A stretch of DNA of 64,000 nucleotides from Argopecten irradians. Its lineage: Eukaryota > Mollusca > Bivalvia > Pectinida > Pectinidae. Positions 6,179 through 57,808 of this stretch are shown piece after piece. A program made the position numbers and the translations under genes. The stretch spans positions 18,291,255 to 18,355,254 of the forward strand of contig NC_091138.1 in assembly GCF_041381155.1 (NCBI RefSeq), read 5' to 3'. Within the stretch, counting starts at the first letter, position 1, and each line of letters starts with the position of its first letter. The notes beneath the pieces were generated by a model, which was given only the letters and a program-made list of their open reading frames with translations, made no database searches and was not told the DNA's origin.

Positions 6179-6455
6179 TAGGTTTTTTTGTTTGTTTGTT
6201 TGAGTTTTACGGCCCATCGACAACTAAGGTCATTTAGGGCCAAACTACAAGTCATGCATTAATATCAGGATAAAAGATCAGGGTAAGAAAAGGCAAGTAA
6301 GGACTAAAACACAGATTGTAAACGTTTATTTGATAAAAAAAAAAAGGTTTGCATGGGATAAAATAGTTTTGGCTAAAACACATGAGAAAACTCATGCACA
6401 ATGTTGATGAAACGATGAAATGTTGAGTTGATACGATGATATGATGAGAAAACGT

Positions 6456-7272
6456 TCATATTTTGTTTAAAATACCTATCTCTTTGAGATAATTGAAAAT
6501 ACGATTATGTCTCACGGCATGAAACAAAGTGTACATGTCGGAGACATCATAGTACTTATCTCGTATGTGTTTAAAATCAATACAATGCAATAAAACATGC
6601 TCCACTGTGAGAGGAGAATCACATGCATGGCATGTAGGAGGATCCTCCCCTCTCAATAGATAGGAGTGTGTAAAATATGTGTGTCCAATTCGGAGCCGAG
6701 AGAGAACAACTTCCTCTCTGCGGTCTCTCCGACTGGACAGGTTAGGATTAAGTGTAGGTTGTATTTTAAACAGTTTATTGTTTGTTTCGGTAGACCACCT
6801 TTGTTGCCAATGGTGTTTAATGGCTGACTGAATGTAAGGTTTGATGTCGGTGTATGGTAGTTTCAAATGTGTTTGTGCTAGGCGAAGAGCAGTCTTAGCT
6901 GCTTTATCGGCCTTTTCATTTCCCTTTATACCCACATGGCTGGGAATCCAGAGATAAGTAATTTGAGTTTTAGAAGACAATCGAAATGTTCGGATCAAAA
7001 GATTTTGGATTAATGTGTTTCTAATTGCCTTTTCAATGCGGTGTTCTTCGATATGGTCAGGCGCCAGACCGATAGCACATGCTTCCGCAGAGAAAATGGA
7101 GGCAACATCCGGGAGTCGGATATAGGAGCAGTGATTAGATGTACAGCATGCTGCCGCAACATTATCACCATCTTTTGATCCGTCAGTGTAGATCTGAACA
7201 TGGTCAGGGAAAGCCCTAATGCACTCCGAAAGGAGGATTTGTGTTCTTCGGGTAATGCACTGGATTTTGCCC
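6456..7272 (-). pseudogene. LINE ORF2 remnant: RNase H and C-terminal zinc-finger-like region
   Basis: The frame reads HVQIYTDGSKDGDNVAAACC, then SIFSAEACAIGLAPDHIEE, then TYLWIPSHVGIKGNEKADKA, which hold the first Asp, the Glu and the final His/Asp of RNase H. Between EKAI and RNTLIQ the usual S-D-S-x-S motif is missing, so a short deletion removed a catalytic Asp and one frame change follows. The C-terminal part has PTCHACDSPLTVEHVLLHC, a Cys-x2-Cys..His..Cys knuckle common in these LINEs, and ends at TAG-free YLKEIGILNKI plus a stop. Confidence 0.82.
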
Positions 7273-7273
7273 T

Positions 7274-7561
7274 CTAATGTAGAGATAAATTGATATCAGG
7301 TGTTTGAATGAGCCATGGTGGTACATCCGATACGGTGTACTCGTCAATGGTGTCGAAATTTACATTTAGTTCCAGCAACAATTTTGAAATTCTGATGCCA
7401 AATGTTGGTGTGAGCTTTTGATTTTGTGTAAATATTTCTTGATGTTGTGGATTGAATACAAGGTTAAATGCGGGATTTTGGGGGTTGGATTTCAGTTGAG
7501 CTGCATACTGTAAGGATAATTTATTTCGTCGATCGTCTAGAGATGGCTCATTAGCTTCCAC
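7274..7561 (-). pseudogene. LINE ORF2 remnant: segment between RT and RNase H
   Basis: It encodes PSLDDRRNKLSLQYAAQL, then KSNPQNPAFNLVF, the conserved Arg-Arg-x-x-L-x-x-x-Y..L-x-x-N-P-x-N-P block that follows the thumb of I/Jockey-type reverse transcriptases. One stop separates it from the RNase H part. Confidence 0.75.
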
Positions 7562-7562
7562 A

Positions 7563-8136
7563 TGGAGACTCTTTATTTAATTAGGAAAACAAACAAATAA
7601 GCATGGGTGACTAGCTGATAATAGTTAAATAGATTTATTGACTTAAATACCCAAAAAGTGTTTCAAACATAGCCTTCTATTTTGCAGGTGATGTTTTTTA
7701 TTGCGAGCGTAAAATCACACATCCTTACGTAAGAGAAACAAAAAAATACCCCAGAAAGGCGTTCAAGCATGGCACAGGTAAGTCACCACGTGCACAGAGA
7801 CTGGACAGTGTTCTAATGGACGATTATTCTGAATATCGAATCAAGTCTATTGTAACAATAACAATATAATAATAAACATCCTTATATTTAACAATGAACA
7901 CGCTTAATAAAGTCCAAAGTAATTTCACATTTAATGTATTTATTGAAAGTATTTATTACAATACACCAAGGGCGTAAACCATCTCCTTGCAATAGTCCAA
8001 AGGATAATGAGCGGAAGTGCTACATACACGGGGACACCTGTTGCCGAGGATGATGGAAATTAAGGTTAGGAAGTAGTAAGCGAGCACTTTATGTCTAACA
8101 GACATACAATGTATATCTAGTTTACTAGTGTGTTCT
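7563..8136. other. Intergenic DNA, nothing recognised
   Basis: AT-rich sequence with no supported frame. A short AAACAAACAAATAAG at 7588 may be a leftover repeat tail. Confidence 0.45.
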
Positions 8137-8356
8137 GTATAATGTGACATGGTGGGGTGTGTTGCTTGGTATCTTCGACGGCATTCTTCAGTGATATAGC
8201 ACTATAAAAAGGGCAATAGTTCCACTATACAAGAAGACACAACATTAATATACCGCAGCCACATTGCACAATATACACGCAACTCACCGCATACATGGGA
8301 TACCATCCTTACTTGACCCTGGCTGTTAATAGGATGTTAATTTATGAAACAAACAA
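8137..8356 (+). repeat. SINE-like repeat, 3' half
   Basis: It runs from TATAATGTGACATGGTGGGG to AATAGGATGTTAATTTATGA and AACAAACAA. Confidence 0.8.
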
Positions 8357-8424
8357 TCTGAAGACCGTATGATTATTGTGTGATCGGGAGCCATTGTCCA
8401 TCTACTGAAGCAGACTATTAAATA

Positions 8425-8545
8425 CACCGAACAACACACACCACCAGGTCAAATGGACAAACCAGTCATTTTTCTACAGTCATTTTTCTACATTACTGTT
8501 TAACGGTATTCAAGGAAAAACATTTTATAGACTGTTGTGTCCTGA
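8425..8545 (-). repeat. SINE-like repeat, strongly diverged
   Basis: ACACCGAACAACACACACCA and ACAAACCAGTCATTT resemble the reversed middle of the repeat (ACACCAAGCAACACACCCCA, GCGAACCAGTCGTCC). Confidence 0.45.
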
Positions 8546-8811
8546 CAAGGGGGCATAACCAAAATCCCACTCGCCGACGCACACCCAATTAATGAATAAA
8601 AGTAAGACGATTACAAATTCTTTGTACGCATTACTTGTCATATTTTCAACAATGATTCATTCCCTTCGACCATACAAAACGTATTTGCTATTACGGTAGT
8701 CAAAATAAACACTAATTATTCGAATTATTAGCCTAAAAACTTATTTTTAAAGGTTTCGCGATTAATTAATAATAAACTTAAATCATATCCTTTCACAAAA
8801 GTTATATTATG

Positions 8812-8965
8812 TCGAGGTCATTGCCTCCAGTCATATGATAAACACGTGCCCTCTTGTTTACGTAGTCATATGATAAACACGTGCCCTCTTGTTTACGTAG
8901 GGCTTTATCCCATTCCTACGTTGTCAACTTAGCCAACATTCGGAACAGTATTGGGTTTGCTTCAT
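8812..8965 (+). repeat. Diverged duplicate of 11974-12085
   Basis: The segments GAGGTCATTGCCT, CCCATTCCTACGTTGTC and CGGAACAGT recur in the same order at 11974-12085. This suggests a duplicated regulatory or transcribed segment upstream of the NRF-6-like gene. Function unknown. Confidence 0.5.
8829..8900 (+). repeat. ~36-bp tandem duplication
   Basis: GTCATATGATAAACACGTGC, then CCTCTTGTTTACGTA, occurs twice in direct succession. Confidence 0.85.
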
Positions 8966-8999
8966 CACAATATACTTACACACAAGAAAATACGACAGT

Positions 9000-9950: not shown

Positions 9951-10163
9951 GTGTTGCTTGGTGTCTTTGGCGGCATGCTTCAGTTATATAGAACTATAAA
10001 GAGCACGAGTTGCTCTATACAAGAGGACACTACACGAATAATACCACAGTCTTCCAAAACATGCACCTCGCTCGTCAAACACGCAAGATACTACATACAG
10101 GGAAGGAAGTTCTTAAAGGATCATGAGTGTTAACAGGACGTAAACACGATAAACCAAACAAAA
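9951..10163 (+). repeat. SINE-like repeat, diverged 3' half
   Basis: It runs from GTGTTGCTTGGTGTCTTTGG to AGGACGTAAACACGATAAAC and CAAACAAAAT. Confidence 0.75.
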
Positions 10164-10266
10164 TAATAAAGGAACAAAGTAAACAGCTCAAGTGAAGATC
10201 ACAAGGACAACACGAATACATCAAAGTAATACTGCAAACACCTATAATACCGCAATATACATTTTT

Positions 10267-13886: not shown

Positions 13887-16800
13887 GTAAGTATTTCCAC
13901 AAAACAATGTCAATCCACATAAATTTACCTATTAGTGATCGTTTACATGTTCCGTGTTCAACAGAGGAGAATCTTATGTAGAATGTTAATAATATTGTTT
14001 AAGGTTTACCTGTTTGCCTGTTGTCACTATAATGTATGCTACGCATACTTTGTTGTCTATGACGGCATGCTGCAAGAAGATAGCAACACAAAGGGCAATA
14101 CAAGTAAATATACATAAAATAAAACAAGAATGTTTACAGTGCAAAAACGCTGGTAACGTGAAAAGGTAAGGGGTCACCTGCTCCAATAGGCCCTGCAGGT
14201 AGGGCGTTAGAATTGTACCTGCTGCCCCTATTGCATGATCGTAAAAGGCGACTAAATTTAGGATCTTATCTTTTCTCTTCTTCCTAACTGACTTTATCTT
14301 TCCTAATGCCTCCCTTGGCACCGCCTCACTTTTGGCCTTGAGTTGAGCGTTCGCCCATGTGAGGAAGGCTCTGGGTTCTGTCCCCTAGCCGAGACACACC
14401 AAAGTCTATAAAAGTGGTAGTTTCTGCTCCTGCTTAGCGTTCAGCATACAGGGAGTGGGACGACTGGTTTGCCCGTTGTCAGTATAATGTGACCGGGTGG
14501 GGTGTGTTGCTTGGTGTCTTCGGCGGCATGCTTCAGTGATATAGCACTATAAAAAGGGCAACAGTTCCACTATACAAGACACAACATGAATATACCGCAG
14601 TCTCCCAAAACACGCACCTCGCACAACATACACGCAACACACCCGCATACATGGGAGGCCGTCCTTACATGACCATAGCTGTTAATAGGACGTTAATAAA
14701 TCAAACAAACAAACAAATCCAATGTATGCAGTGTGTAGCGTGTGTAAAGTGCGAGGTGCGTGTTTTGGGAGACTGGTATTTTCGTGCTGTGTCTTTTATA
14801 GTGGAACTATTGCCCTTTTATAGTGCTATATCACTGAACAATGCCGTCGAACACACCAAGCAGCACACCCCACCCGGTCACATTATACTGACAACGGGCG
14901 AACCAATCGTCGCACTCCCTGTATGCTGAGCGTAAAGCAGGAGCACAAACTACCACTTTTAAGACTTTGGTGTGTCTCGGCAAGGGGACAGAACTGGTTC
15001 GCCCATTGTCAGTATAATGTGACCGGGTGGTCACCCATCTTAATTTAACTTTGTATGTAGATTAACATTGGAAAGATATCGGACTTAATTTCGGAGTTAT
15101 TGCCCTTTGTGATAATAAATATGGAACCTTAAATATGTGAACAAGATAGTGTGAGTTAGTATGCACCAATCTTAATGCAACTGTGTATGTAGACCTATTA
15201 GATCTATGTTCCTATTTCATGAACAAAAGACATCAGTTGGCTAGTAAATGACAACCAATTTGTATCAAATATCAGGTGACAGTTAAGGTCCATGGGCTTC
15301 TTGTTTATATATATACCCGTCACATTTACATGGTAAAAAATAGTACTTTTCGTAGTACTCCTTTATACTTGCCTATATTTCGCTATAAAAATTAGGAAAA
15401 GGGGGGTTAGGTGAGTCTCGAAATAATCTATACCCACATAGTTCTAAGAATGGCACTAGAATAAGTCGCACTGGGTGTAAAGTAAACGTCGCGTTTTGCT
15501 TTTGATACCATGCTCTTATCGGGTAAAGTCATCATATAACAATCACAGAACGAAGGAACGGTAATTGGAATATGGATTCAGCGGATTTTAGGTCACCTGA
15601 GACGAAGTGACCTATTCTAATCGCCTTTTGACCGTTGTCATCCGTTATGTGTTTGTAAACAATTTACATTTTCGACTTCTTCTCTAAAACAGCTGAAGCA
15701 ATTTCAATGAAACTTTGTAGAAACCTTCTAAGGTATAAGGCCAATCAAAATTGTGAATTATATGACCCCAAGGGGGCTGTGGGAGGGACCAAAAGGGGTA
15801 AAATTGACTAAAATTTCAAAAATCTTCTTCTCCACTCACAGATTTGGTAGAATCAAAACCTCTTCATAGAAAGAAAGGTCTCGAGGCCCTCCACAAAATT
15901 TGTGAATTATATGACCCTGGGGTCTCATGTTTCCCCCTGGGGAGGTGGTCAAGTTTACTATAGTTTATATAGGAAACACACATTTATGAACTTTATTTGC
16001 TTATTTTTCATTGGAAATAAGTCAAACTGGGTTAGAATTATTAGCCAGAAGGGCGGGGCCAAAACTGGTCATATTGGGTTACTATTCAAATATCTTTCTT
16101 CTGATTTCTTTTTTCAAAAATATTATTTTATTCAGTAATACATGTAAATAACAATACATTTCCCATTCACATATCTAGGGCTCTCATTCAATTTCCATAT
16201 TTGTTATATTTTAGATCAAATTTATCTCGCTCTTCTCTCTTACCTAATAACAGATGTATTAAGAATGTGCGCTTGCATACATTTCAATCATTCGTCTCAT
16301 CCACTCAAAAAAATTATATGCAATGAAGTCAATTTAATTAACTTCCACAACAGTTTAAAAATATATCAAGAGAGACAACTCTTACATAAAATGGTCAGAA
16401 GGGAGACTTTCATTCCGTTTCATTCGGGAAAAAACCAAACACATTTACTCATAAGGAACACCATATTCACCTAACTTGCACCACTCTCTGCTCTTTTATG
16501 AGGATATTTTCAACATTCACACATAATAACAATACTTATTGTTACAGTAATACTGCATAGTAAATTGGATTGTTTGCGTAATTAAATAATAATAATGATG
16601 ATCAATATAGAAGGACATATGAAATCATTATTTGAAGGATATTTTATAATAATAATGATAATAATTACAGGAGGACACAAAAATCATTCTTTGAAGGACA
16701 TTATGGTAAAAATATATTCCAAATTAAAATGACATACTGAGTATAGAAAAGGTAAACCTTTCAAAAATTAAAAGTTATAGTCCTATTTTGAAAGAAAAAA

Positions 16801-19800: not shown

Positions 19801-22800
19801 TTGGCCACAGCACAGGCCCCTGGGACCTTTTGAATTTTTAAACGTATTTCAAGGGTTTGCTTTAATGTTGCTACATGTAACATTTAGTTTTAATAAAATT
19901 GGTTCGTGGGCAAATTTCCATTGTTCGTGAAAGAGGTCCTTTCAAAAATCTTCTGAATTCACAGGTTTGATGGAACCAAATAATCTTCAAAGATTAAAAA
20001 GTGAATTTATAAAATCACTGACACTGACTGACTTCTAGTTTGGTTTTGTTGTTTAATGTTGGCAAAGCAATTTGGAATTTTAAGCATAAGGTTCGGTAAC
20101 ATAATACACTAACTGTCAAAATTATAAACAAAAAATGAAAATTCTAATACGAAGGTTCAACTTTAAAGTTTATTCAAATTAGTAAATACGTTTTACAGAT
20201 TTGAACCAACTTTGCAATGTTCTTTCTGTATCAGTACTCAGGTTACCGTCAAGGCCTCTTGGGCATCTTGTTAATCATAACAATAGGTTTCCGTCAACAA
20301 AATATTTACGTACATTTTTTGTTGACGAAAACGTACTACATGTACTATAGCATCCTTATAACAACAGGTTTTTGATGCAAAATTTGTACGTACATATTTT
20401 GCTGACGAAAACGTGTTACTAGTAACACAATTTCGTCAGTGCGCTTTCGGCCATCATCTCATATATATTGCATGAACCTAATTAAATTCTGGAAACGACT
20501 GATACTATAAAGCACCTTTTGTATGTGGCGTTCCTACGAATTTCGCGTTCAAAGGATATTCCAGGACATTTAGCTTCTTGAAAAAAAGCATGTCCTTCCT
20601 GATGTATCTCCTGATTGTACGTCAATTAGTGAGATACCAAATATTTCCTGTTACAGTGATAGATGCCACAGGGAAACTGTCGTCTGGATTGATGGACGGG
20701 AACCTGTTCTGGTCAGGTTCATATGACGAGTGTCTGAGTGTGAATGCTGCCGAGAAGTTTGATGGACAATACTGTACAGCTACTATCTCCCTCGCATCCA
20801 TTTTGGTAAGTGATAAATAACCGTTATAAAGCGCTGAATTTGTACTTGTACACAAAACATTTATTTCGCTGCGTATACTTTTTTGTTTGATTTATTAACG
20901 TCCTATTAACAGCTAAGGTCATGTAAGGACGGCCTCCCATGTATGCGGTGTGTTGCTTGTATGTTGTGCGAGGTGAGTGTACTGGGAGACTGCGGTATGT
21001 TCGTGTTGTGTCTTCTTGTACAGTGGAACTGTTGCCCTTTTTATAGTGCTATATCACTGAAGCATGCCGCCGAAGACACCAAGCAACACACCCCACCCGG
21101 TCACATTATACTGACAACGGGCGAACCAGTCGTCCCACTCCCTGTATGCTGAACGCTAAGCAGGAGCAGAAACTACCACTTTTATAGACTTTGGTGTGTC
21201 TCGGCCAGGGGACAGAACCCAGAGCCTTCCTCACAGGGGCGAACGCTCAACTCAAGGCCAAAAGTGAGGCGGTGCCAAGGGAGGCATTAGGAAAGATAAG
21301 TCAGTTAGGAAGAAGAGAAAAGATAAGATCCTAAATTTAGTCGCCTTTTACGATCATGCAATAGGGGCAGCAGGTACAATTCTAACGCCCTACCTATACG
21401 TCTTCAATAACTAATTAATACACATAAAGAATCTCGTGAACACTAGTTACTTCCTCTTTTCACCTGCAATGTTGACTTATCCTGTAACAAACACTGACAT
21501 TTTCAGAAATACACCTACCACAGATGTATTTTGCAGTATTAAGAATTTTAGCACGATTCGACGGACTCACTCCGAGATGTAATCAATTAATCATATTACT
21601 TCTATTCGCGAGTATTGACTCGCATAACAAAATGCATTAAACGAAGACAGTAAAAATTTCACGCATTTTTCCATAGATTACAAAGAAATAATTAATAATC
21701 ATACAAACAAGAGGCCCATGGGCCTTAACGGTCACCTGAGTTAGAATTTATAATGAAACAAATAACGAAACAAATTAAAGACATATAAACACCATATGCT
21801 GGGCCTTGAAGTTGGTCAGTGATTTATAAATTTGAATTTTAGACTATGAAGAGTATTTGCTTCCATCAAACCTGTGAACTTAGAGGTATTTTTTGAAATT
21901 TTAATCATTTTTACCCCTTTTTAGCCCCGCCCCTCTGCCCCCAGGAGGTCGGCCAGGACAAAAGTGGATATGATATTAAAATGCTATCTCAGGCTAATAA
22001 TTCTAACCAAGTTTGACTCATTTCCTATGAAAATTGAGCAAAAAATGTTCATTAATGTGTTTTTCCTATATAAACTATAGTGAACTTGACCCCCTCCCCA
22101 AGGGGAAACAGGACATTCCAGGGTCATATAATTAACAATTTTTATAAACAAACTTTAAGACCTTTTCATCTATAAAGTGTATTTGATTATACCATTTCAA
22201 GAATTTTAAAAGAATATTTTTGAAGTTTTAGCCTATTTGACCTTTTTTGGCCCCGCCTCTCTGCCCCCAGGGGGTCGGCCTGGACCAATATGGATATGAT
22301 ATTAAAATGCTATCTCAGGCTAATAATTCTAACCAAGTTTGACTCGTTTCCAATGAAAATTGAGCAAAAAATGCTCATAAATGTGTTTTCCCTATATAAA
22401 CTATTGTAAACTTGACCCCCTCCCCAGGGGGAAACGTGAGACATCAGGGTCATATAATTCACAATTTTTGTAAAGGACCTTAAGACCTTTCTATTTATGA
22501 AAAGTATTTGATTCTACCATTTCCAGAATTTCAGAAGAAGATTTTTGAAGTTTTAGCCTATTTGACCCTTTTTTTAGCCCCGCCCTTCTGCCACCAGGGG
22601 GTCGGCCAGGACCAATGTGGATATGATATTAAAATGCTATCTCAGGCGAATAATTCTAACCAAGTTTGACTCGTTTCCAATGAAAATTGAGCAAAACATG
22701 CTCATAAATGTGTTTTCCCTATATAAACTATAGTAAACTTGACCCCCTCCCCAGGGAGGAAAAGTGAGACCCCAGGGTCATATAATTCACAATTTTTGTA

Positions 22801-37800: not shown

Positions 37801-40533
37801 TGATTATGTTCACAAGGATCATTTTGATAATACTTGATTGATAAGAGAAATAAAACACCCACAAAATCACTCGTATCAATATTTCGAGAATTTACCTCCA
37901 TCATCCTAGAGTTACCAACATATAGAGGTTGGAAATGAATAATTTGAATTTATAGGTAAATTATTAATTCCATTGCCATACCTATAAAGTAGGATTACCG
38001 ATGTCTGTAATCAACATAAAGTGATGATCAAGGTTGTTGTTTATTACCTACCGTATACTAACATACATTAGCATAACATTAATTAGCGCTTTCCCGTATA
38101 ATATGGTGCGTTAAAATAAGATAAGCATTCATATAATAAGCAATAATAAAATGTAATATTACAAAATAAAGTACATTTTCAGAATCCGAATACTTACAAT
38201 GATTTTCTTTTTTAATTATCTAGGGCAGATATGACCCATTACTTTTACGACTACTACGTAGTTCCTTGGTGTCGTATGGGACCGTACATCGTCGGTATAG
38301 TAACCGGGTACATCATCTACCGGACTAACGGACAGTACAAAATACCGAAGGTAAAATTTTGTTTGTTTGTTTGATTAATTAACGTCCTATTAACAGCTAT
38401 GGTCATGTAAGGACGGCCTCCCATGTATGCAGTGCTTGTGTGTATGTTGTGCGAGGTGCGTGTTTTGGGAGACTGCGGTATATTCGTGTTGTCTTCTTGT
38501 ATAGTGGAACTGTTGCCCTTTTTATAGTGCTATATCACTGAAGCATGCCGCCGAAGACACCAAGCAACACACCCCACCCGGTCACATTATACTGACAACG
38601 GGCGAACCACTCGTCCCACTCCCGTTATGCTGAGCGCTAAGCAGGAGCAGACACTACCACTTTTATAGACTTTAGTGTGTCTCGGCCAGGGGACATAACC
38701 CAGAGCCTTCCTCACAGGGGCGAGCGCTCAACTAAAGGCCAAAATCCTCAATTCAGAAATTTGTTGTGTTTCCCGGTTTCGATAATATTTCAAACTGTAA
38801 CTAATTAAAAAACTGGAAACATTTGAGATTGGCCTTGACATTCCTCATAAAACGGAAGTGCCTAAATGTTGCAGTAGTCTAGAATACATATACTAACACT
38901 ACGTAATAAAGTTTGTATTAATTACACAAGGAAAAATGACAATAAAAATAGTGTAAATTTTCACTGCATTATGGGCTTCAAATTCAAATATTTTCATGAT
39001 TCTGATATTTTACTACTATATTGCAATTTATGACTCCATCAGGGAATCAACTTATTGATATGGATAGCTTTTGCCGTGACAGCCTGTCTGGTGGTGTATG
39101 GTATCAATGGCCCCGTCCATGGTCATACCTGGAGTAATGGTGTTAACGCCCTGTATAACGCCGTACACCGCTCTGTGTGGGGAATGTGTGTCTGCTGGGT
39201 TATCTTCGCCTGTGTCACCGGTAATGGAGGTAAGTTTTCTGACAAAGTTGTTTTATTTGTATTTTAACCATATGACACGATGGAAAATCATTTTTTACAA
39301 ACCAATATGAACATAGTACGTCCTTGAAATTATGTTTTTCATAATTGCATTATGATAACGCTAATTAATAGAAATTCGGTATTCACCACAGTGTAATAGT
39401 TGAATATTACGCAAACGCCACATGCAAATACAAATCAGGATTTTTTCAATCACAATGTATAATGTTACATATAGAACAATCATCTAACGACAAATATGAA
39501 AACTGTGATTAAAATTGATGAATTATGTTTTTTTTTCTGTAGAAATATTTACTTTTGTAAAAGTGAAATACTCATGTGCCTTATTTTAGACCGTGTGCAT
39601 TTGACGAATTCCTGACTGAACAATGGGAGAAACGTTTTTATAATGTGAAAAATCTTACGTTCGTTTTTCTTAATATGAAATTGAGTCCTATACAAAATAC
39701 AAAAAATCGTTTAATTTTTTCATGGCATGAATAATGAATTGGCACTTATCTTTGTATTCAATGTCGCTATAAAGTCGTTTGGCCATGTGATTAAAGAATT
39801 ACACCTGTTTTTCAAGGCATCATAAACGACTTTCTCTCGTGGAAGCTGTTCGTCCCTCTTGGTAGACTCAGCTACTGTATTTATCTGACACATCTACTCG
39901 TCATTTCGTATTACATACAGACCCTACGACAACCACTTTACGCAACAACTTTACAATTCGTAAGTAGTTTTAAACAGTATATCGAGATCAACTTCAATTC
40001 CTTATTCGTTTCGAAGTTAAGAACAAATGCAAATACAACTATTGTAAATATTTGCTTGTATTTCATTGTCGGGTATATCCATGTTCATTCTGGATACTGT
40101 CACAGCTTATTACATCTAGAATGTCTAAAATTGCAACATTTTATATATTGTATAATTACGTTTTACATTTCTATGTAACATTAATACACTTATTATAGTG
40201 CAATAAAGATATCACTGAACTATGTGATTTTATGAAAATTATGACTTACCGTTTATACTAGTCTTCTACAACACGCATTCAGCACACTTTATAGGGGGAT
40301 AGGGCTATCATTTAATGACATTCACTGTAGATATGACGCAACAGGTAATACAAATCTTTCACACAATATATTTCTCTTGATAGTAACAACTTTTTTTGTG
40401 TTTTATTTTCCAGACTTTCATATTCCTTGGATCATTGATGTTATCTATCCCTGTGTCCATCGTAGCCTCTTTGGCATTTGAAGCTCCAATGATGGCTCTT
40501 GAAAAAATCATCTTCAGGCGAAGCAAAAAATAA
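13247..40533 (+). CDS. nrf-6: NRF-6-like (nose resistant to fluoxetine) multi-pass membrane acyltransferase, 14 exons
   Basis: Exons 13247-13886, 20657-20805, 23612-23711, 26299-26472, 27986-28153, 29040-29133, 35637-35729, 36220-36382, 37268-37347, 37569-37688, 38224-38350, 39043-39229, 39817-39959 and 40414-40533 join in phase with GT/AG borders into 785 codons. The protein has a signal peptide (1-23), a Ser/Thr-rich linker with an AASSAN repeat (to about residue 105), an NRF domain (about 190-296, with GVCMPDSCT), and an acyltransferase-3 domain with many membrane segments. R390 and H401 form the R-X10-H motif known in that family (NGIRFISITW..LGHS). C. elegans NRF-6 and NDG-4 are reported to act in lipid or drug transport across epithelia; the substrate here is unknown. 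The start is the ATG before the signal peptide; a seven-codon upstream ORF begins at 13211. The symbol is a family-level call, not proven orthology. Confidence 0.93.
14191..14717 (+). repeat. SINE-like repeat, full length (best copy)
   Basis: It starts CCCTGCAGGTAGGGCGTTAG and ends CGTTAATAAATCAAACAAAC plus tail, 527 bp. Candidate A and B boxes (TTAGCGTTCAGCA, GGTTTGCCCG) lie mid-element rather than at the head, so the pol III promoter assignment is tentative. It lies in intron 1 of the NRF-6-like gene. Confidence 0.88.
14718..15033 (-). repeat. SINE-like repeat, reversed, with short forward fragment
   Basis: Positions 14718-14992 are the reversed 3'-to-middle part without the CAAA tail. Positions 14993-15033 (CTGGTTCGCCCATTGTCAGT onward) read forward. 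It is inserted against the tail of the preceding copy. Confidence 0.75.
15034..15308 (+). mobile_element. Family B-type pearl/HINE-like 3' end (truncated copy)
   Basis: It ends CAGGTGACAGTTAAGG, then TCCATGGGCTTCTTGTTT, the 3' terminus of family B. The two stretches CACCCATCTTAATTTAACTT and CACCAATCTTAATGCAACTG, about 130 bp apart, look like internal units. The 5' end is replaced by a SINE. Confidence 0.5.
15309..15586. other. Intron 1 DNA between two repeats
   Basis: No repeat or coding sequence recognised. Confidence 0.4.
16100..16820. other. AT-rich insert within family B element
   Basis: It separates two family B segments. Two related stretches near 16590 and 16650 (AATAATAATGAT..GAAGGAC) hint at an internal duplication. 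No termini could be defined. Confidence 0.35.
16982..17447 (+). repeat. Left arm of the foldback element
   Basis: It contains GGGGCCTGTGCTATGGCCA, the octamer CATGTCAATTATTAAC and GTGGACCGGTAAATTTGT, each found complemented in the right arm. Confidence 0.85.
19441..19942 (-). repeat. Right arm of the foldback element
   Basis: Complement of the left arm, with an extra ~35 bp near 19600-19640. Confidence 0.85.
20274..20656. other. End of intron 1 with two related palindromic stretches
   Basis: TTGTTGACGAAAACGTACTA near 20320 and TTGCTGACGAAAACGTGTTA near 20398 belong to a diverged doublet of about 80 bp. No further feature was recognised. Confidence 0.4.
20657..20805 (+). CDS. nrf-6: NRF-6-like exon 2
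   Basis: The acceptor is TTACAG|TG and the donor TTG|GTAAGT. The exon supplies MIDATGKLSSG, then NLFWSGSYDECL and QYCTATI. This is the middle of the NRF domain: the family pattern is a Met-Asp-Ala-x-Gly-Lys run followed by Gly-x-Tyr-x-x-Cys. It joins exon 1 in phase 1 and ends in phase 0. Confidence 0.92.
20881..21396 (-). repeat. SINE-like repeat, near full length, in intron 2
   Basis: It runs from TTTTGTTTGATTTATTAACG to ACAATTCTAACGCCCTACC. It is one of the least diverged copies. Confidence 0.88.
21706..23435 (-). mobile_element. Pearl/HINE-like element, family B, complete, in intron 2
   Basis: On the - strand it starts with the hairpin GGTCACCTGAGACGAAGTC and complement (23405-23433), then a GTCCGTCGTCGTGCG-like stretch. 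About four units of ~326 bp follow (AGGCTAATAATTCTAACC at 21991, 22317 and 22644, diverged near 22967). It ends CAGGTGACCGTTAAGG, then CCCATGGGCCTCTTGTTT. It is non-coding. Confidence 0.72.
21991..23340 (-). repeat. ~326-bp tandem array inside family B element
   Basis: Each unit contains GGATATGATATTAAAATGC, TTTGACTC.TTTCC and CCCTCCCCAGGGGGAAA. Later units are diverged. Confidence 0.85.
23612..23711 (+). CDS. nrf-6: NRF-6-like exon 3
   Basis: The acceptor AAATAG|GGGG and donor CCA|GTAAGT bound 33 codons plus one base. It encodes NLHLGVCMPDSCTAMEI, the last conserved cysteine block of the NRF domain (Cys-Met-Pro-x-x-Cys). Confidence 0.92.
23921..24371 (+). mobile_element. Pearl/HINE-like element, family D, short, in intron 3
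   Basis: It starts with the hairpin AGCTCGCCTATTCGAA, then GAATAGGGGGAGCT (23921-23950). Two units of 167 bp begin CACGTTAAAGTTTTTGAGCA (23989 and 24156). It ends GGATAGGCGAGC, then the hairpin GCTGTTCTCCAACAGC (24349-24364) and TCTTGTTTC. Confidence 0.7.
24372..25237. other. Intron 3 DNA with an unassigned open frame
   Basis: A 125-codon - strand frame at 24507-24884 (TVKSAIRPALYQGNYELR..PPCKVPKWYNFN) is the longest here. I do not recognise it and it has no splice or start context. A strongly diverged SINE middle lies near 25165-25225. Confidence 0.3.
25238..26298 (+). repeat. ~44-bp minisatellite of splice-acceptor-like units ending at exon 4
   Basis: About two dozen imperfect units read approximately TACAATGTGCTAATCTCTGT then GATCTGATATTTGTCCCCCT and ACAG. 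Each unit contains a pyrimidine tract followed by CTACAG, GTACAG or similar, which is a consensus 3' splice site. The last unit (TGTCTCCTATAGTACAG) supplies the acceptor of exon 4. Unit length varies slightly and several units are shortened. Confidence 0.85.
26299..26472 (+). CDS. nrf-6: NRF-6-like exon 4: first core membrane segment and cytoplasmic loop
   Basis: The phase requires the acceptor at TAGTACAG|TATGTGG, giving ICGVFGVLMLLSTLFDVLY, a membrane segment, then a charged loop rich in Lys, Glu and Pro. The acceptor is the last unit of the minisatellite at 25238-26298. A second AG lies 5 bp upstream (CTATAG at 26293) but does not keep the frame. Confidence 0.88.
26473..27366. other. Intron 4 DNA
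   Basis: A decayed family B-like 3' portion (AGTTTTGGAGAAGAAGTTAA near 27293) is the only recognisable content. Confidence 0.4.
27371..27727. mobile_element. TTAA-flanked MITE, copy 1, in intron 4
   Basis: Inverted ends AGATGCTCCACCGC and GCGGTGGAGCATCT are flanked by TTAA (27367-27370 and 27728-27731). TTAA target sites are typical of piggyBac- and Kolobok-type elements. It is 357 bp and non-coding. Confidence 0.82.
27986..28153 (+). CDS. nrf-6: NRF-6-like exon 5: R-X10-H acyltransferase motif
   Basis: This exon encodes GILAKLAMTFSVYTNGKKL, then LSAINGIRFISITWVV and LGHS. Arg and His are separated by ten residues, the motif known as essential in acyltransferase-3 proteins. The acceptor is TTAAG|GA and the donor TGC|GTAAGT. 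Confidence 0.93.
28447..28868 (+). repeat. SINE-like repeat with 7-bp flanking duplication, in intron 5
   Basis: Head CAGGTAGGGCGTTAGGATTG, tail AATTAATCAAACAAACAA. GTACAAG occurs at 28440-28446 and 28869-28875. About 90 bp around the candidate pol III boxes are missing. Confidence 0.85.
28935..29067 (+). repeat. 77-bp tandem duplication of the exon 6 acceptor and exon start
   Basis: TATCATATCACCTATTTACAG followed by AGAATCCTACTTTTATAAGA occurs with its exon start at 28963, and again with small changes at 29040. Both copies have a good acceptor. The upstream copy reaches a stop after about 15 codons, so the downstream copy is the functional one. Confidence 0.8.
29040..29133 (+). CDS. nrf-6: NRF-6-like exon 6
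   Basis: This exon encodes NPTFIREFISNWSSMPMV, then NALLSVDSFFTL, which continues in exon 7 as SGLLVSYLF. The acceptor TTTACAG is the second of two tandem copies 77 bp apart. The donor AAG|GTAGGT lies 12 bp before the inverted repeat of a DNA transposon. Confidence 0.9.
29142..29169 (+). repeat. Left TIR and TATA target copy of the intron 6 transposon
   Basis: TATA is followed by TGTGACGGCGAC...GGG. It matches the complement of 34719-34746 with one mismatch. Confidence 0.85.
29170..29948. other. 5' non-coding part of the intron 6 transposon
   Basis: No second gene was seen between the left TIR and the transposase start. Confidence 0.4.
29949..33398 (+). CDS. Transposon-encoded DUF7869-like protein, four exons, one early stop
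   Basis: The exons are 29949-31077, 31561-31710, 32038-32238 and 32752-33398, all in phase with GT/AG borders. The middle exons encode VDGAFHYSWDFAQVHFP, HFDNCSGQNKNN and GHTKFDPDWHFGVWK. The spaced Asp residues in an RNase H-like setting suggest a DDE transposase, and I recall these blocks from proteins labelled DUF7869. The N-terminal part is acidic (SSDSSEDECNYESDKSSDD). A cysteine pair (CTDLCNSCQIF) precedes the catalytic-like region. An in-frame TAA at 30321-30323 splits exon 1, so this copy is probably inactive. The frame stays open for about 750 bp after the stop, so the damage looks recent. Confidence 0.75.
33399..34718. other. 3' non-coding part of the intron 6 transposon
   Basis: AT-rich sequence between the transposase stop and the right TIR. 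An AATCGATTA-rich patch at about 33540-33610 is low-complexity. Confidence 0.4.
34719..34746 (-). repeat. Right TIR and TATA target copy of the intron 6 transposon
   Basis: CCCATTTTCGCCGTCGCC...CACA is followed by TATA. It is the complement of the left end. Confidence 0.85.
34983..35115 (+). repeat. 44-bp tandem repeat, three units, in intron 6
   Basis: AATTGTCAAGTTTTCAAAAC, then TGTTATTTATTGATTCAATT, starts at 34983, 35027 and 35071. The units are essentially identical, so the array is young. It lies outside the transposon. Confidence 0.9.
35637..35729 (+). CDS. nrf-6: NRF-6-like exon 7
   Basis: This exon encodes GLLVSYLFMKEMKREKG, then INWFMFYFHRFW, and completes SFFTLSG across the 6.5-kb intron. 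The FYFHRFWRLTPAYM run, finished in exon 8, is characteristic of the family. Confidence 0.92.
35730..36219. other. Intron 7
   Basis: No repeat or structure recognised. Confidence 0.5.
36220..36382 (+). CDS. nrf-6: NRF-6-like exon 8
   Basis: This exon encodes RLTPAYMLVLFLDMSLFRYL, then GPFWAKEG..CKDTWWTNLLYINNLY. The C-x-x-x-WW-x-N-LLY-I-N-N-hydrophobic signature is typical of NRF-6-like proteins. The donor is ATG|GTAAAT, phase 0. Confidence 0.93.
36383..37267. other. Intron 8
   Basis: A frame at 36840-37091 is open for 83 codons but has no family likeness or splice context. Nothing else recognised. Confidence 0.4.
37268..37347 (+). CDS. nrf-6: NRF-6-like exon 9
   Basis: This exon encodes CFGWAWYLANDMQFYVVSP and LLLVPLYL. 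The W-Y-L-A-N-D-M-Q-F-Y block is the most conserved element of the family. It has standard TTTCAG and GTAAGT borders. Confidence 0.95.
37569..37688 (+). CDS. nrf-6: NRF-6-like exon 10
   Basis: This exon encodes a membrane segment (SKKIGLFVNSLALLGITIAT) followed by a polar loop that ends SADNLM. The acceptor is TTTCAG and the donor AAT|GTAAGT. Confidence 0.9.
37689..38223. other. Intron 10
   Basis: AT-rich; nothing recognised. Confidence 0.5.
38224..38350 (+). CDS. nrf-6: NRF-6-like exon 11
   Basis: This exon encodes MTHYFYDYYVVPWCRMGPYI, then VGIVTGYIIY. The Y-x-x-P-W-x-R-x-x-P-Y-x-x-G pattern is typical of the family. A SINE-like repeat begins 10 bp past the donor. Confidence 0.94.
38361..38743 (-). 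repeat. SINE-like repeat starting 10 bp after the exon 11 donor
   Basis: The reversed tail GTTTGTTTGTTTGATTAATT starts at 38361, and the exon 11 donor is at 38351. The repeat is little diverged and ends in its own middle (GCTCAACTAAAGGCCAAAA), so it is 5' truncated. Confidence 0.87.
39043..39229 (+). CDS. nrf-6: NRF-6-like exon 12
   Basis: This exon encodes two hydrophobic stretches around WSNGVNALYNAVHRSVWG. Y-x-x-x-x-R-x-x-W-G-x-x-x-x-W is a conserved feature. The donor GGAG|GTAAGT is in phase 1. Confidence 0.93.
39230..39816. other. Intron 12
   Basis: Nothing recognised. Confidence 0.5.
39817..39959 (+). CDS. nrf-6: NRF-6-like exon 13
   Basis: This exon encodes GIINDFLSWKLFVPLGRLSY, then CIYLTHLLVISYY. 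The run F-L-S-W, P-L-x-R-L-S-Y, Y-L-x-H is the C-terminal signature of the acyltransferase domain. Confidence 0.95.
39960..40413. other. Intron 13
   Basis: Nothing recognised. Confidence 0.5.
40414..40533 (+). CDS. nrf-6: NRF-6-like exon 14 and stop
   Basis: This exon encodes the last membrane segment (FLGSLMLSIPVSIVASLAFE), then APMMALEKIIF and a basic tail RRSKK before TAA. The family usually ends with F-E-x-P-x-x-x-L-E-K, as here. Confidence 0.95.
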   Translation, partial: TFIFLGSLMLSIPVSIVASLAFEAPMMALEKIIFRRSKK

Positions 40534-49268: not shown

Positions 49269-49547
49269 ACCATTCAGGGAGTGGGACGACTGGTTCGCCC
49301 TTTGTCAGTATAATGTGACCGGGTGGGGTGTGTTGCTTGGTGTCTTCGGCGGCATGCTCCAGTGATATAGCACTATAAAAAGGGCAACAGTTCCACTATA
49401 CAAGAAGACACAACATGAACATACCGCAGTCTCCCAAAACACGCACCTCGCACAACATACACGCAACACATCGCATACATGGGAGGCCGTCCTTACATGA
49501 CCATAGCTGTTAATAGGACGTTAATTAATCAAACAAACAAACAAATC
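49269..49547 (+). repeat. SINE-like repeat, 3' half, little diverged
   Basis: It runs from CAGGGAGTGGGACGACTGG to GACGTTAATTAATCAAACAA and tail. Confidence 0.87.
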
Positions 49548-49571
49548 TTTTTATCCATCCATTTTGTAATG

Positions 49572-49757
49572 GCTTCAGTGATATAGCACTATAAAAAGGG
49601 CAACAGTTCCATTATACAAGAAGACACAACATGAATATATTGCAGTCTCCCAAAACACTCACCTCGCACAACATATACGCAACACACTGCATACATGGGA
49701 GACCGTCCTTACATGACCATAGCTGTTAATAAGACGTTAATTAATCAAACAAACAAA
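49572..49757 (+). repeat. SINE-like repeat, 3' third
   Basis: It runs from CTTCAGTGATATAGCACTAT to AATTAATCAAACAAACAA. It is preceded by the spacer CATCCATTTTGTAATGG also found at 51390 and 51905. Confidence 0.85.
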
Positions 49758-50747: not shown

Positions 50748-51068
50748 GAGACACACCAAAGTCTATAGAAGTGGTAGTTTCTGCTCCTGCTTGGCGTTCA
50801 GCATCAAGGGAGTGTGCCGACTGGTTCGCCCGTTGTCAGTATAATGTTACCGTTTAGGGTGTGTTGCTTGGTGTCTTCGGTGGCATGCTTCAGTGATATA
50901 GCACTATAAAAAGGGCAACAGTTCCACTATACAAGAAGACACAACATGAATATACCGCAGTCTCCCAAAACACGCACCTCTCACAACATACACGCAACAC
51001 ACCGCATACATGGGAGGCCGTCCTCGCATGACCATAGCTGTTAATAGGACGTTAATTATTCAAACAAA
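50748..51068 (+). repeat. SINE-like repeat, 3' two thirds
   Basis: It runs from GAGACACACCAAAGTCTATA to AATTATTCAAACAAACAA. Confidence 0.86.
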
Positions 51069-51074
51069 CAAAAA

Positions 51075-51410: not shown

Positions 51411-51586
51411 TCATAGCACTATAAAAAGGGCAACAGTTCCATTATACAAGAAGACACGACATGAATATATCGCAGTCTCCCAAAACACTCACCTCGCACA
51501 ACATACACGCAACACACCGCATACCTGGGAGGCCGTCCTCGCATGACCATAGCTGTTAATAGGACGTTAATTATTCAAACAAACAA
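51411..51586 (+). repeat. SINE-like repeat, 3' third
   Basis: From TAGCACTATAAAAAGGGCAA to TTATTCAAACAAACAA, part of a ~520-bp duplicated unit. Confidence 0.85.
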
Positions 51587-51589
51587 AAA

Positions 51590-51835: not shown

Positions 51836-51923
51836 ATTTAACACTCCTTGTAACAATGATGTGTGTCCTTTATGCTTTTTGTTACGTTAATGCATTGTCT
51901 TTTATCCATCAATTTTGTAATGG

Positions 51924-52112
51924 CTTCAGTGATATAGCACTATAAAAAGGGCAACAGTTCCATTATACAAGAAAACACAACATGAATATATCGCAGTCTC
52001 CCAAAACACTCACCTCGCACAACATACACGCAACACACTGCATACATGGGAGGCCGTCCTTACATGACCATAGCTGTTAATTGGACGTTAATTAATCAAA
52101 CAAACTAACAAA
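51924..52112 (+). repeat. SINE-like repeat, 3' third
   Basis: From CTTCAGTGATATAGCACTAT to TTAATTAATCAAACAAACTA. Confidence 0.85.
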
Positions 52113-53345
52113 TTGTAATGGCCACGGTCTTTGGGTTAGAAGTGTTGGAAAAACCACATCACTGCATTTTCATCTTGAATCTTATCAGACTCATCATCAG
52201 TGATGGCAGTGTTTTGGAATGGATAAAGAGAAACATTCCATAACTCTGCTAACAGAGGACGTAGTTCGGATGGAGCACATTCCACTACAATACTGTAGCA
52301 AATTGAAGAGTATAGGAATGTTGCTGTGTAAATTTTGCCATACATTTGGGTTACATTTCACATCTACACCCTTGATCTGTATCTGGTGGGTGAAGGTAAT
52401 TTCCTCATGGCTGCTGCATTCTCATTTCTTTATTATTATACTTTATACTATATATAATCTCATTGATAATATCTCATATACTGTCATGACTTCTGAAACA
52501 TATACTTAACAAATGCTTTCAAATACTCTTTCATGTCATTTATATATATATATATTTTGTTACCAGGGAGAGAACTTACATAGGCACGGCCTGTTGTTTG
52601 ATCCCATTTCAATTGATTTGAAATAAAATTTTGTTGAAATTGACTAAAAAATTAATCAATTTGAAATTGTCATATGATGGATGTATATATCCACACACAG
52701 TGGGCTTAGATGATAAAGATGTTATAAAATCAAAAAATATCATGGGTAATATCAACTACAATCATCAACAGATTTTTTATAATGTAGTAGCTCTGGATGA
52801 CATTCTAACAGACTAATCAATTTTTTCTTTGTCATTTGGCACAGAAGTGTTCTTGCTCCTGACAAAAATTCTACTCCAGAAGCAAATCTGTGCAGAAGAT
52901 TTCTTGTCCTTTCCTCTTGTACATGTGGAAGCTACAAAAAAATGAACATTACAGGTGAAATATGGTAAAAAATTTGATATTTATACAGTTTTTAAATCAC
53001 TTTAAATGATGAACTCTACTAGACCTACATATCCTCAATTTCGTATACCTGGTAGTATTTTTTTCAACAAAGGTAATTTCTACATGTTATGTACTCTGTC
53101 GGACTGCAGTCTTATATAAAATGACAATTAATATCACAGAAATGGTTTAGTACTTGGTTAATTTCACATCTGACTATCAATTGAAAAAAAATAGTTTACC
53201 TTAATTTATGTTTTGATGTGGATTTCTTTGGCATTCCCGTGCTATTCCAAGACCACATTCGGCGTTGGATTGACAAAGATGTACCACACATATCACAATT
53301 GACGGATCGCCGGAGTTTGATTGACAGGTCATTTCGACCAATTGC
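52113..53345 (-). pseudogene. Unclassified spliced coding fragment, copy 2
   Basis: Highly similar to 49758-50747, with the same exon borders. It carries an extra ~240-bp stretch at about 52380-52625 containing a TA microsatellite. Its frame past CQMTKKK differs (LISLLECHPELLHYKK), which shows that at least one copy has shifted. Confidence 0.5.
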
Positions 53346-53361
53346 GTAACGCGTTATAAAT

Positions 53362-54773: not shown

Positions 54774-55191
54774 CTGCATGTAGGGAAATTAGAATTGTAC
54801 CTGCTGCCCCTATTGCATGATCGTGAAAGGCGACTAAATTTAGGATCTTATCTTTTCTCTTCTTCCTAACTAACTTTGTCTTTCCTTTTGGCCTTGAGTT
54901 GAGCGTTCGTCTCAGTGAGGAAGGCTCTGGGTTCTTTCCCCGGGCCGAGACACACCGAAGGCTATAAAAGTGATAGTTTCTGCTCCTGCTCAGCGCTCAG
55001 CATACAGGGAGTGAGACGACTGGTTAGCCCGCTTTGTCAGTACAATGTGACCGGGACGGATGTGTTGCTTGGTGTCTTTGGCGGTATGCTTCAGTGATAT
55101 AGCACTATAAAAAGGGCAAGTTCCACTCTACAAAAAGACACAACACAAACACACCACAGTCTCCCAAAACACGCACCTAGCACTTCACACC
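54774..55191 (+). repeat. SINE-like repeat, 5' part, cut by a hAT-like end
   Basis: Head GCATGTAGGGAAATTAGAAT through CACGCACCTAGCACTTCACA. The sequence then switches abruptly to CAGGCATGGGGTAATCG. Confidence 0.82.
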
Positions 55192-55350
55192 AGGCATGGG
55201 GTAATCGTAATCGATTGTAAGTAATTACATTTTCTCAAGTAATCGACAGTAATCAGTAATTGAAGACTATTTCGATTACTTGTAATCGTAATCGATTACA
55301 GTGAAATTTTACTGTGTAATCGTAATTACATTTCAGTTACTTTTCAATTA
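55192..55350 (+). mobile_element. hAT-like terminal fragment
   Basis: CAGGCATGGGGTAATCGTAA, then TCGATTGTAAGTAATTAC, has the start and TAATCGTAATCGATTAC-rich subterminal style I associate with hAT ends in invertebrates. No second end was found within the next kilobase. Confidence 0.4.
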
Positions 55351-55848
55351 CATTATATCAATTATGAAGTTGAATTTCTGCTAAATTATGCAGTATATAT
55401 TTGGTTTAGAAAGTGAAAAGTTCAACTTGTCTGTTGTAGTTCAACTAAAACTTAAGATAGATGTTACATTGTTCAGTATTGGTCTATACATAATATTTTA
55501 TATTTAGTTTTCTGAACTGTAAGGCTAAAAGAAATAAAGAATTAAAATAAAATGTTTATACATGTACATTTTATAACTTATTTTAAGTTTCACCAATGTG
55601 CCCATGGACATAAGAGTATGTTGTATTTAACAATGGAAAGTATTGTTTTCATAAAAGCCAACAGGTGTTGACTAAGTTCAATTTAGTTGTATCAGGGAGT
55701 ATCTCCTCAGATTTCCTTCAGATGAACGTGTTGTTTTAGGAAACAATGAGAAGTCAGTTAATACCGTGTTATATAATCTGTAGCTGTCCTTTTCACCTGT
55801 ACAGTCAACCAAGTACCTGTTTAGCTCAGAAGCATAAGTCACATTTTT
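55351..55848. other. Unassigned DNA
   Basis: AT-rich; possibly interior of the hAT-like fragment. Nothing recognised. Confidence 0.35.
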
Positions 55849-56478
55849 AGCTCACCTGGCCCGAAGGCGAGGCGGGGCCCAATAGGGGAAATAGAGGTAA
55901 ATCCTATAAATCGCTACTAGTCATAGAGTTCTGCATGGATTGTAATCAAATTTGGCCACAAACATCCTTGGAGGAAGGGGAACAGAACTTGTTTAAATTT
56001 TGGCTCTGACCCCCTGGGGGCAGGAGGGGCGGGGCCCAATAGGGGAAATAGAGGTAAATCCTATAAATCGCTACTAGTCATAGAGTTCTGCTTGGATTGT
56101 AACCAAATTTGGCCACAAACATCCTTGGGGGAAGGGGAACAGAACTTGTATAAATTTTGGCTCTGACCCCCTGGGGGCAGGAGGGGTGGGGCCCAATAGG
56201 GGAAATAGAGGTAAATCCTATAAATCGCTACTAGTCATAGAGTTCTGCTTAGATTGTAACCAAATTTGGCCACAAACATCCTTGGGGGAAGGGGAACAGA
56301 ACTTGTATAAATTTTGGCTCTGACCCCCTGTGGGCAGGAGGGGTGGGGCCCAATAGGGGATTTAGAGGTAAATATTCAAATTCTTTCAGAAAAGAAACAA
56401 CGAAACTGTATTCAGAACATTCCATTACTTGGCATTACAAACCAGGTGAGCGATACAGGCCCTCTGGACCTCTTGTTT
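55849..56478 (+). mobile_element. Pearl/HINE-like element, family A, copy 2, with three 157-bp units
   Basis: It starts AGCTCACCTGGCCCGAAGGC and passes directly into unit sequence, so the leader is deleted. Units begin at 55911, 56068 and 56225. It ends CCAGGTGAGCGATACAGG, then CCCTCTGGACCTCTTGTTTC. Confidence 0.72.
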
Positions 56479-56517
56479 CTTTTAAAAAATCCTTTAAATT
56501 ATATACTTTTTATATAT

Positions 56518-56921
56518 TTGGCACCGCCTCACTTTTGGCCTTGAGTTGAGCGTTCGCCCCTGTGCGGAAGGCTCAGGGTTGTGTCCCCTGGCCGAGACAC
56601 ACCAAAGTCTATAAAAGTGGTAGTTTCTGCTCCTGCTTAGCGTTCAGCATACAGGGATTGGGACGACTGGTTCGCCCGTTGTCAGTATAATGTGACCGGG
56701 TGGGGTGTGTTGCTTGGTGTCTTCGGCGGCATGCTTCAGTGATATAGCACTATAAAAAGGGCAACAGTTCCACTATACAAGAAGATACAACATGAATATA
56801 CCGCAGTCTCCCAAAACATGCACCTCGCACAACATACACGCAACACACCGCATACATGGGAGGCCGTCCTTACATGACCATAGCTGTTAATAGGACGTTA
56901 ATTAATCAAACAAACAAACAA
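56518..56921 (+). repeat. SINE-like repeat, 5' truncated, little diverged
   Basis: From TGGCACCGCCTCACTTTTGG to GACGTTAATTAATCAAACAA and tail. Confidence 0.88.
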
Positions 56922-57169
56922 AAAAAAGCATGCATTACATTGAAAATTATAAATATAAGAAAAATTTCATGGCAACTGATTTCCTCTTTCTCATTAGAAA
57001 AATCAAGAATCAGATTTCAGGTTTAAAATATCTACTTGTTGTGCTTTTGAAAAAGCAGTAAATAAGTACAGTCTGTGATAGTCCTGCTGTCTGTTCAGTT
57101 GGTGAGACTACAGCCCGTCTTCCAATTGCTGCATTTGTACAATAACATAATGTAGATAAGAAACAGTCG
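56922..57169. other. Unassigned DNA
   Basis: Nothing recognised. Confidence 0.4.
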
Positions 57170-57808
57170 TTATCCTGTTTACTCGTCAATGGTGTCGAAA
57201 TTTATATTTAGTTCCTGCAAAAACTTTGAAATTCTGATGCCAAATGTTGGTATGAGCTTTTGATTTTGTCTGAATATGTCTTGGTGTTGTGGATTAAATA
57301 CAAGATCGAATTCCTATCTATTGAGAGGGGAGGATCCTCCCACATGCCACGCATGTGATTCTCCTCTCACAGTGGAACATATTTTAGTGCACTGTATTGA
57401 TTTTAAGCACATACGAGATAAGTACTACGATGTCTCCGACATGTACACTTTGTTTCATGCCGTGAGACATAATCGTATTTTTAATTATCTCAAAGAAATC
57501 GGTATTTTAAACAAAATATGAACGTTTTCTCATCATATCATATCATCGTATCATCTCAACATTTCATCGTTTCATCAACTTTGTGCATGAGTTTTCTCAT
57601 GTGTTTTAGCAAAAACTATTTTATCCCATGCAAACTTTTTTTTTTTTATCAAATAAACGTTTACAATCTGTGTTTTAGTCCTTACCTGCCTTTTCTTACC
57701 CTGATCTTTTATCCTGATAATAATGCATGACTTGTAGTTTGGCCCTAAATGACCTTAGTTGTCGATGGGCCGTAAAACTCAAACAAACAAACAATTATCC
57801 TGTTTACT
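57170..57808 (+). mobile_element. LINE copy with 5' inversion and 14-bp target duplication
   Basis: TTATCCTGTTTACT occurs at 57170-57183 and 57795-57808. Inside, 57180-57306 is the reversed upstream part of the LINE (same as 7339-7460, RT/RNase H linker). Positions 57309-57794 are the 3' part in forward direction: NSYLLRGEDPPTCHACDS through YLKEIGILNKI, stop, 3' UTR, CAAA tail. About 0.7 kb between the two parts is absent. This is the classic result of twin priming. Confidence 0.88.
57309..57521 (+). pseudogene. LINE ORF2 C-terminal remnant
   Basis: Encodes LRGEDPPTCHACDSPLTVEH, then ILVHCIDFKHIRDKYYDV, to the stop. It is nearly identical to the - strand copy at 6456-6670, which shows that both belong to one recent family. 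Confidence 0.8.

Follow-up and report, generated by a model that had tools for sequence, protein, structure and literature searches.

Which long interspersed element (LINE) copies the abundant short interspersed element (SINE) of Argopecten irradians? The question is raised by a stretch of 64,000 nucleotides (RefSeq assembly GCF_041381155.1, contig NC_091138.1, positions 18,291,255 to 18,355,254 of the forward strand), hereafter the window, in which many copies of a SINE-like repeat (the main SINE) lie together with two copies of a LINE. Tail sharing between SINEs and LINEs is classical, and the first-pass annotation, made from the letters of the window, had proposed this LINE family, or a close relative, as the source of reverse transcriptase for the SINE on the basis of their similar tails. 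When the tails were compared in the window and in the genome (845.8 Mb, 1,508 contigs), the homology of the two 3' ends was well supported by a shared two-stem hairpin, by compensated stem changes and by similarity beyond the terminal CAAA run. Copying of the main SINE by this LINE clade appears probable.

Tail sequences of the SINE and the LINE

Both LINE copies in the window end ATGACCTTAGTTGTCGATGG GCCGTAAAACT and then (CAAA)n, with the tail core starting at 57749 on the plus strand and lying at 6214-6233 on the minus strand. The tail core of the SINE, ATGACCATAGCTGTTAATAG, was found at 22 places in the window with up to four mismatches (19 plus, 3 minus), and the SINE body at 30 merged places. 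The endings that the first-pass annotation had given for both families, CAAA run included, are present, its estimate of about 30 SINE copies was right, and the identity of 21 of 28 positions that it had counted between the family tails is exact; omitted there were the short joins that precede the CAAA run ('ACT' in the LINE, 'TTAAT' or similar in the SINE). Genome-wide, the exact 20-mer was counted 7,386 times for the SINE and 1,184 times for the LINE, and the reversed control of each was found 0 times. A satellite of LINE 3' ends lies at C3:66485968-66487058, where at least 15 exact tail cores follow one another, mostly at a spacing of 59-67 bp.

When the tails were aligned locally with the CAAA run excluded, the best score between SINE and LINE was 16. 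The comparison with shuffled tails that had been proposed at first pass was run with 5,000 dinucleotide shuffles, which gave a mean of 6.1 and a maximum of 14, so that none reached 16 (z = 8.2). The similarity is therefore not limited to the CAAA run, as the hairpin described below also shows. In the same shuffle comparison, a second SINE family and an older LINE tail (a consensus typed by eye; both are described below) gave a z of 13.9. The SINE hairpin was also compared with the whole of a 5.1-kb LINE copy (L069), in which the single best ungapped match was the LINE's own 3' end (23 of 33 positions); the runners-up reached 17 on that strand and 19 on the opposite strand. Inside the outer stem, 16 of 21 positions agree between the two hairpins.

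Covariance models of each family were then applied to the other. The LINE-only model, trained without L123 and run over the whole window, found the two LINE tails, then 14 SINE tails at E-values of 1e-7 to 0.0024 and three further SINE tails up to an E-value of 1. The SINE-only model, from whose training the window rows, the L003 array, L055, L092, L078, L088 and L091 were left out, found both window LINE tails at 1.2e-5 and, on L069, the 3' end at 9.6e-7 (next match 0.42). Neither model matched an unrelated repeat in the window up to an E-value of 1, and the SINE-only model gave 0 matches in three members of a second RNase H LINE family (1.6-1.7 kb each). The 3' end of the SINE is homologous to that of the LINE beyond the terminal repeat.

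Predicted hairpin structure

When the tails were folded separately with RNAfold, the same two-stem hairpin was predicted in SINE and LINE, with an outer stem of 5-6 pairs, an internal loop of 4 nt and 2 nt, an inner stem of 4 pairs and a loop of 7 nt; the LINE fold has extra pairs with flanking sequence. Between the outer stems (CGUCCU/AGGACG in the SINE, UGGCCC/GGGCCG in the LINE) there are five substitutions, and six of six pairs are kept, two of them through a change on both sides. The inner stems (UGAC/GUUA and UGAC/GUCG) differ by two substitutions with all pairs kept. Under the same number of random substitutions, such retention of pairs has a chance of 0.008 for the outer stem and 0.018 for the inner stem. 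The inner stem and the loop (CAUAGCU in the SINE, CUUAGUU in the LINE) are largely common to the two families.

RNAalifold, applied to six tails (three typed consensus tails and three older LINE-like copies), returned exactly this hairpin, with two doubly changed pairs. In an alignment of 68 of the 77 distinct copies, nine having been dropped as truncated, shifted or doubtful, 89.3 % of cells pair, versus 82.9 % when shuffled and at most 59 % when slid by one to three columns. These analyses predict a tail RNA secondary structure common to SINE and LINE.

The LINE

ORF2 of L069 has 1,234 codons, is open in the genome and matches the Pfam domains of an APE-type endonuclease (EN; PF03372/PF14529), a reverse transcriptase (RT; PF00078) and RNase H (PF00075), a set which, in one ORF2, we take to mark the I superfamily. 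The two most basic stretches of ORF2 sit between EN and RT. Open frames of similar length, up to 1,235 codons, are present in several LINE copies. ORF1 contains CCHC-like motifs by eye and has no Pfam match.

In SINE and LINE copies alike the 5' ends vary and the 3' end is fixed. Alignments to L069 start at many positions, from 1331 to 4827, in the 42 LINE copies whose alignment reaches the tail and whose start lies inside the fetched stretch, and 12 of the 42 start inside the hairpin or within about 40 bases of it, the start positions being set by BLAST and partly by how the copies were picked. Flanking duplications include four clean cases of 12 bp. In five copies (L021, L022, L023, L037 and L051) the start immediately follows a further CAAA run, which gives the impression of insertion at an older tail or of priming from one. 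The plus-strand copy in the window (57177-57794) has a 5' inversion of the kind made by twin priming.

A degenerate pattern for the C-terminal TVEH of ORF2, meant to sample other LINE families, gave 871 genome matches; among the 100 matches listed no other LINE family was found, and all look like this one. Twenty of these loci were fetched, mostly for having no exact tail listed nearby, a list that does not extend to four of them on C4 and C6. In a loose search, the LINE tail or a variant of it was found 302-413 bases downstream of the ORF2 motif in 17 of 21 places, and none in four. The second RNase H LINE family, the top-scoring group in a Pfam RNase H genome search, was set aside as a partner, not excluded: no such hairpin was found in the 1.6-1.7 kb from the RNase H start of three members, the exact 3' end of which is unmapped.

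The main SINE and a second SINE

The head of the main SINE contains box-like pol III motifs by eye; ARAGORN made no tRNA call in it and Rfam gave no match, nor did Rfam match anything in the window, the reference SINE, the second-SINE copy L079 or the array L003. A common stretch of at least 8 at the boundary was found in 14 of 51 main SINE copies (null 6 %), about four of the 14 being tail-like or array repeats and L063 and L064 looking like one site copied. The flanking duplications are mostly 10-13 bp long. At L003:1-1900, SINE-type tail units, mostly about 66 bp apart, form a tandem array interrupted by a SINE copy.

Loop type was also considered as an age marker. The 25 copies with loop CATAGCT had a median identity of 95.1 % to a reference copy of the same type, and the five copies with TGG-type loops (L003 copies left out) 82.8 % to the CATAGCT-type reference. 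However, we rejected the marker because five copies are too few and the reference is biased; one TGG-type copy reaches 97.8 %, and the body counted for another (L002, 94.0 %) is probably that of an adjacent copy.

When a pattern forbidding some upstream letters of the main SINE was used, 2,855 genome matches were obtained. Most of the 100 matches listed have the same upstream letters and represent a second SINE family, of which eight copies were fetched (L073-L080). By eye, it has a tRNA-like head and a V-like core, CTCCGGGTACTCCGG, and it is presumably a RUDI-like V-SINE; ARAGORN found no tRNA in the eight loci. Copy L079 ends CGTCCTTACATGACCCTGGCTGTTAATAGGACGTAAAACTAAACAAACC. The bodies of the seven other fetched copies are 94-100 % identical to L079, a figure biased towards young copies by their selection through an exact 34-base match. 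The hairpin is identical to that of the main SINE at 31 of 33 positions and to that of the LINE at 22 of 33. A common boundary stretch of at least 8, mostly 9-12 bp, was found in 7 of 15 copies (null 0 %). When loose matches were classified by family, with L009 left out as it overlaps the window, 462 of 607 belonged to no family.

Search for a closer LINE

Hairpins with a different innermost pair were sought with a pattern, and 12 of its 34 genome matches were fetched. Eight of the 12 carry older, LINE-like tails, with the loop CCTGGCT (seven) or CCTAGCT (one); the loop type is in part a product of selection, since the pattern admitted only a C at one loop position and anything but T at another. 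One of these eight copies (L086) also holds ORF2 fragments. The hairpin of the main SINE is identical at 23 of 33 positions both to the older LINE-like tail, represented in all comparisons by a consensus typed by eye, and to the modern LINE.

The alternative that survives best is an unseen or extinct LINE lineage with the CGTCCT/AGGACG stem as the true partner, this LINE being only a cousin. The stem is common to two different SINE bodies, neither of which has the stem of the LINE; older LINE-like tails with loop CCTGGCT do exist; and the copies of the second SINE are near-identical, several with flanking duplications, so that some partner may have served this SINE recently. Nevertheless, we consider such a lineage rather unlikely. 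No recurrent LINE-like third family appeared among the 100 listed of the 2,855 matches described above. A further exclusion pattern, with an estimated chance of about 0.42 of passing a random family, gave 327 matches (100 listed, 16 fetched), and 0 of those fetched had a tblastn match to ORF2. A pattern with a changed third stem pair gave five scattered matches. The minisatellites of L101, L102, L107 and L108 look like part of the tail and were not taken for elements; the one at L101:1-1051 has a unit of about 41 bp resembling part of the hairpin, and the same 41-bp spacing was seen at C1:15527622 and C1:16426111.

Several results weigh against assigning the SINE to this LINE through its hairpin. 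The main SINE aligns to the older LINE-like tail with a score of 18 and to the modern LINE with 16; for the second SINE the scores are 23 and 19, and the hairpin identities 25 of 33 and 22 of 33. The main SINE hairpin is closer to that of the second SINE (31/33) than to that of any LINE found (23/33). No LINE with the exact stem of the SINE was found in the exclusion-pattern searches, which have limited power and could miss one. SINE and LINE disagree at 5 of 12 outer-stem positions and at two of the seven loop positions, so that identity is incomplete in the loop, the most critical part in the fish L2 elements. The double changes are largely one LINE-versus-SINE split with few independent events, further pair types in the 68-copy alignment are not above shuffles (352 of 500 as high), and RNAalifold on all 68 decayed copies gives no structure. 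Compared with shuffles, the SINE hairpin shows no excess stability (z = -0.68 and 0.25) and the LINE hairpin only a mild one (z = -2.0 and -1.8). In addition, flanking duplications of the LINE are modestly above the null (13 of 42 copies versus 13 %), and five of the 13 are CAAA-type repeats.

The outcome for a closer LINE, the existence of which the first-pass annotation had named as a threat to its proposal, is mixed: the pattern searches, limited in power, yielded no LINE with the exact stem, and the older LINE-like tails lie slightly nearer to the main SINE than the modern LINE does. As for the proposal itself, that this LINE or a close relative supplies the reverse transcriptase, tail homology supports it and we infer the clade as the best reading. 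The 'close relative' half is the safer one because stems and loops differ, the SINEs are closer to each other, the older tails are closer and no exact-stem LINE was found. The best formulation is that the SINE tails derive from this LINE clade or have a common ancestor with it.

A further explanation is transfer of the tail in the opposite direction or from a third source, as a mobile module or satellite acquired separately, with no shared enzyme today. Tandem arrays of tail-like units do exist, at L003 (spacing about 66 bp) and from C3:66485968 on (mostly 59-67 bp). However, the tail or a variant follows ORF2 at a distance of 302-413 bases in 17 of 21 places, and the stems have stayed paired despite substitutions, a constraint not expected of a passive module; this origin is very unlikely. 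Chance or compositional likeness of CAAA-rich ends, suggested by the CAAA runs that terminate both families and by the AT-rich window, has a negligible probability and is already refuted by the shuffle test (0 of 5,000 with the run excluded) and by the reciprocal covariance matches at 1e-7 and 9.6e-7.

Proposed mechanism

This LINE clade most likely copies the main SINE, with recognition of the hairpin centred on the loop. The host would make the SINE RNA, and the ORF2 protein of the clade would take it up, the inner stem and the loop being the main features recognised; the target site having been nicked, reverse transcription would then be primed within the CAAA run. Three points of this model are inferred: the role of the hairpin as recognition element, the tolerance of a different outer stem, and copying by this clade rather than by one not seen here. 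The agreement at 16 of 21 positions, the compensated stem and the basic stretches between EN and RT make it plausible that the clade recognises the SINE hairpin, even with two differences in the 7-nt loop. Flanking duplications of about 9-13 bp were found around individual copies of all three families, and are consistent with the same kind of target-primed insertion.

A wider proposal is that one RNase H LINE clade serves both Meta-like and V-like SINEs via the hairpin, the loop being the shared key while the outer stem drifts with compensation; we regard this as possible, though still on the doubtful side. The loops of SINE and LINE-like copies may even have changed in step, older copies having CCTGGCT and young ones the TAG type, as if the parasites were following the host enzyme.

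Features of the window

Table 1 SINE and LINE features in the window (positions 1 to 64,000)
Feature	Positions	Strand	Evidence or remark
Full-length main SINE, reference, about 530 bp	14189..14720	+	
SINE hairpin of reference copy	14656..14696	+	RNAfold; LINE-only model, E 8.6e-7
Near full-length SINE	20879..21395	-	Hairpin is best SINE match of LINE-only model, E 1e-7
Near full-length SINE	58818..59310	+	Likely 10-bp target-site duplication CTATATAACA, by eye
Near full-length SINE	3245..3721	+	Hairpin 3664-3704
5'-truncated SINE with hairpin	38358..38744	-	
SINE with internal deletion and hairpin	28446..28868	+	
Two adjacent SINE copies	49271..49757	+	Hairpin in each
5'-truncated SINE with hairpin	50748..51072	+	
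5'-truncated SINE with hairpin	51413..51587	+	
5'-truncated SINE with hairpin	51923..52113	+	
SINE with hairpin	56518..56922	+	Upstream of plus-strand LINE copy
3' part of second SINE copy, diverged hairpin	3125..3223	-	blastn against L079; SINE-only model, E 0.048
LINE 3' end, hairpin and CAAA run at end	57310..57794	+	blastn: L069 4398-4875, 94 % identity
LINE hairpin	57736..57776	+	RNAfold; covariance match, SINE-only model, E 1.2e-5
Inverted 128-bp LINE piece (L069 3678-3551), adjoining plus-strand 3' end	57177..57304	-	blastn
LINE copy: RNase H and C-terminal coding sequence, 3' UTR, tail	6183..7573	-	L069 3440-4880, 93 %
LINE hairpin of second copy	6206..6246	-	SINE-only model, E 1.2e-5

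Other repeats in the window are a 157-bp tandem repeat in two arrays 54 kb apart (764-2162 and 55865-56478) and a tandem array of a 44-bp repeat (25247-26288).

Comparison with known systems

An open-frame LINE and two SINE families with a common tail hairpin provide a concrete, testable partner assignment. The pair may already have been published; element sequence strings and molluscan SINE-LINE partner terms were without match in a full-text literature search that did not cover the central SINE papers. RUDI and other V-SINEs of molluscs were reportedly treated by Luchetti et al. in 2016, and the second SINE resembles them in its tRNA-like head and V-like core, both seen by eye. The hallmark of MetaSINEs is a 66-bp Meta central domain, and Nishihara et al. 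in 2016 are said to have attributed their variable 3' tails to changes of LINE partner. The main SINE, like the MetaSINE superfamily and bivalve SINEs referred to in PMC10294476, has a long central domain between its head and its LINE-like tail. A study of bivalve transposons states that, of eight SINE families in bivalves, only three have a known LINE donor (PMC10294476). Molluscan LINEs of the I superfamily include Nimb and Ingi (PMC10294476, PMC11203168); the present LINE has the EN, RT and RNase H set of this superfamily in one ORF2.

The stringent-type LINE/SINE pairs of UnaL2, ZfL2-1 and ZfL2-2 (PMC4176376) have a 3' stem-loop followed by a short repeat, like the elements studied here. 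According to the same paper, the region of fish L2 LINEs that binds the tail hairpin lies between EN and RT, and two zebrafish LINEs tolerate exchange of the 3' hairpin stem and not of the loop (PMC4176376). An exchangeable stem and a loop whose identity matters resemble the compensated stem and the mostly conserved loop of the scallop tails. Unlike fish L2, the present LINE has RNase H and a two-stem hairpin with a 4/2 internal loop. The contrast between stem and loop may be regarded as a natural version of the fish L2 swap experiments, in a LINE that bears RNase H.

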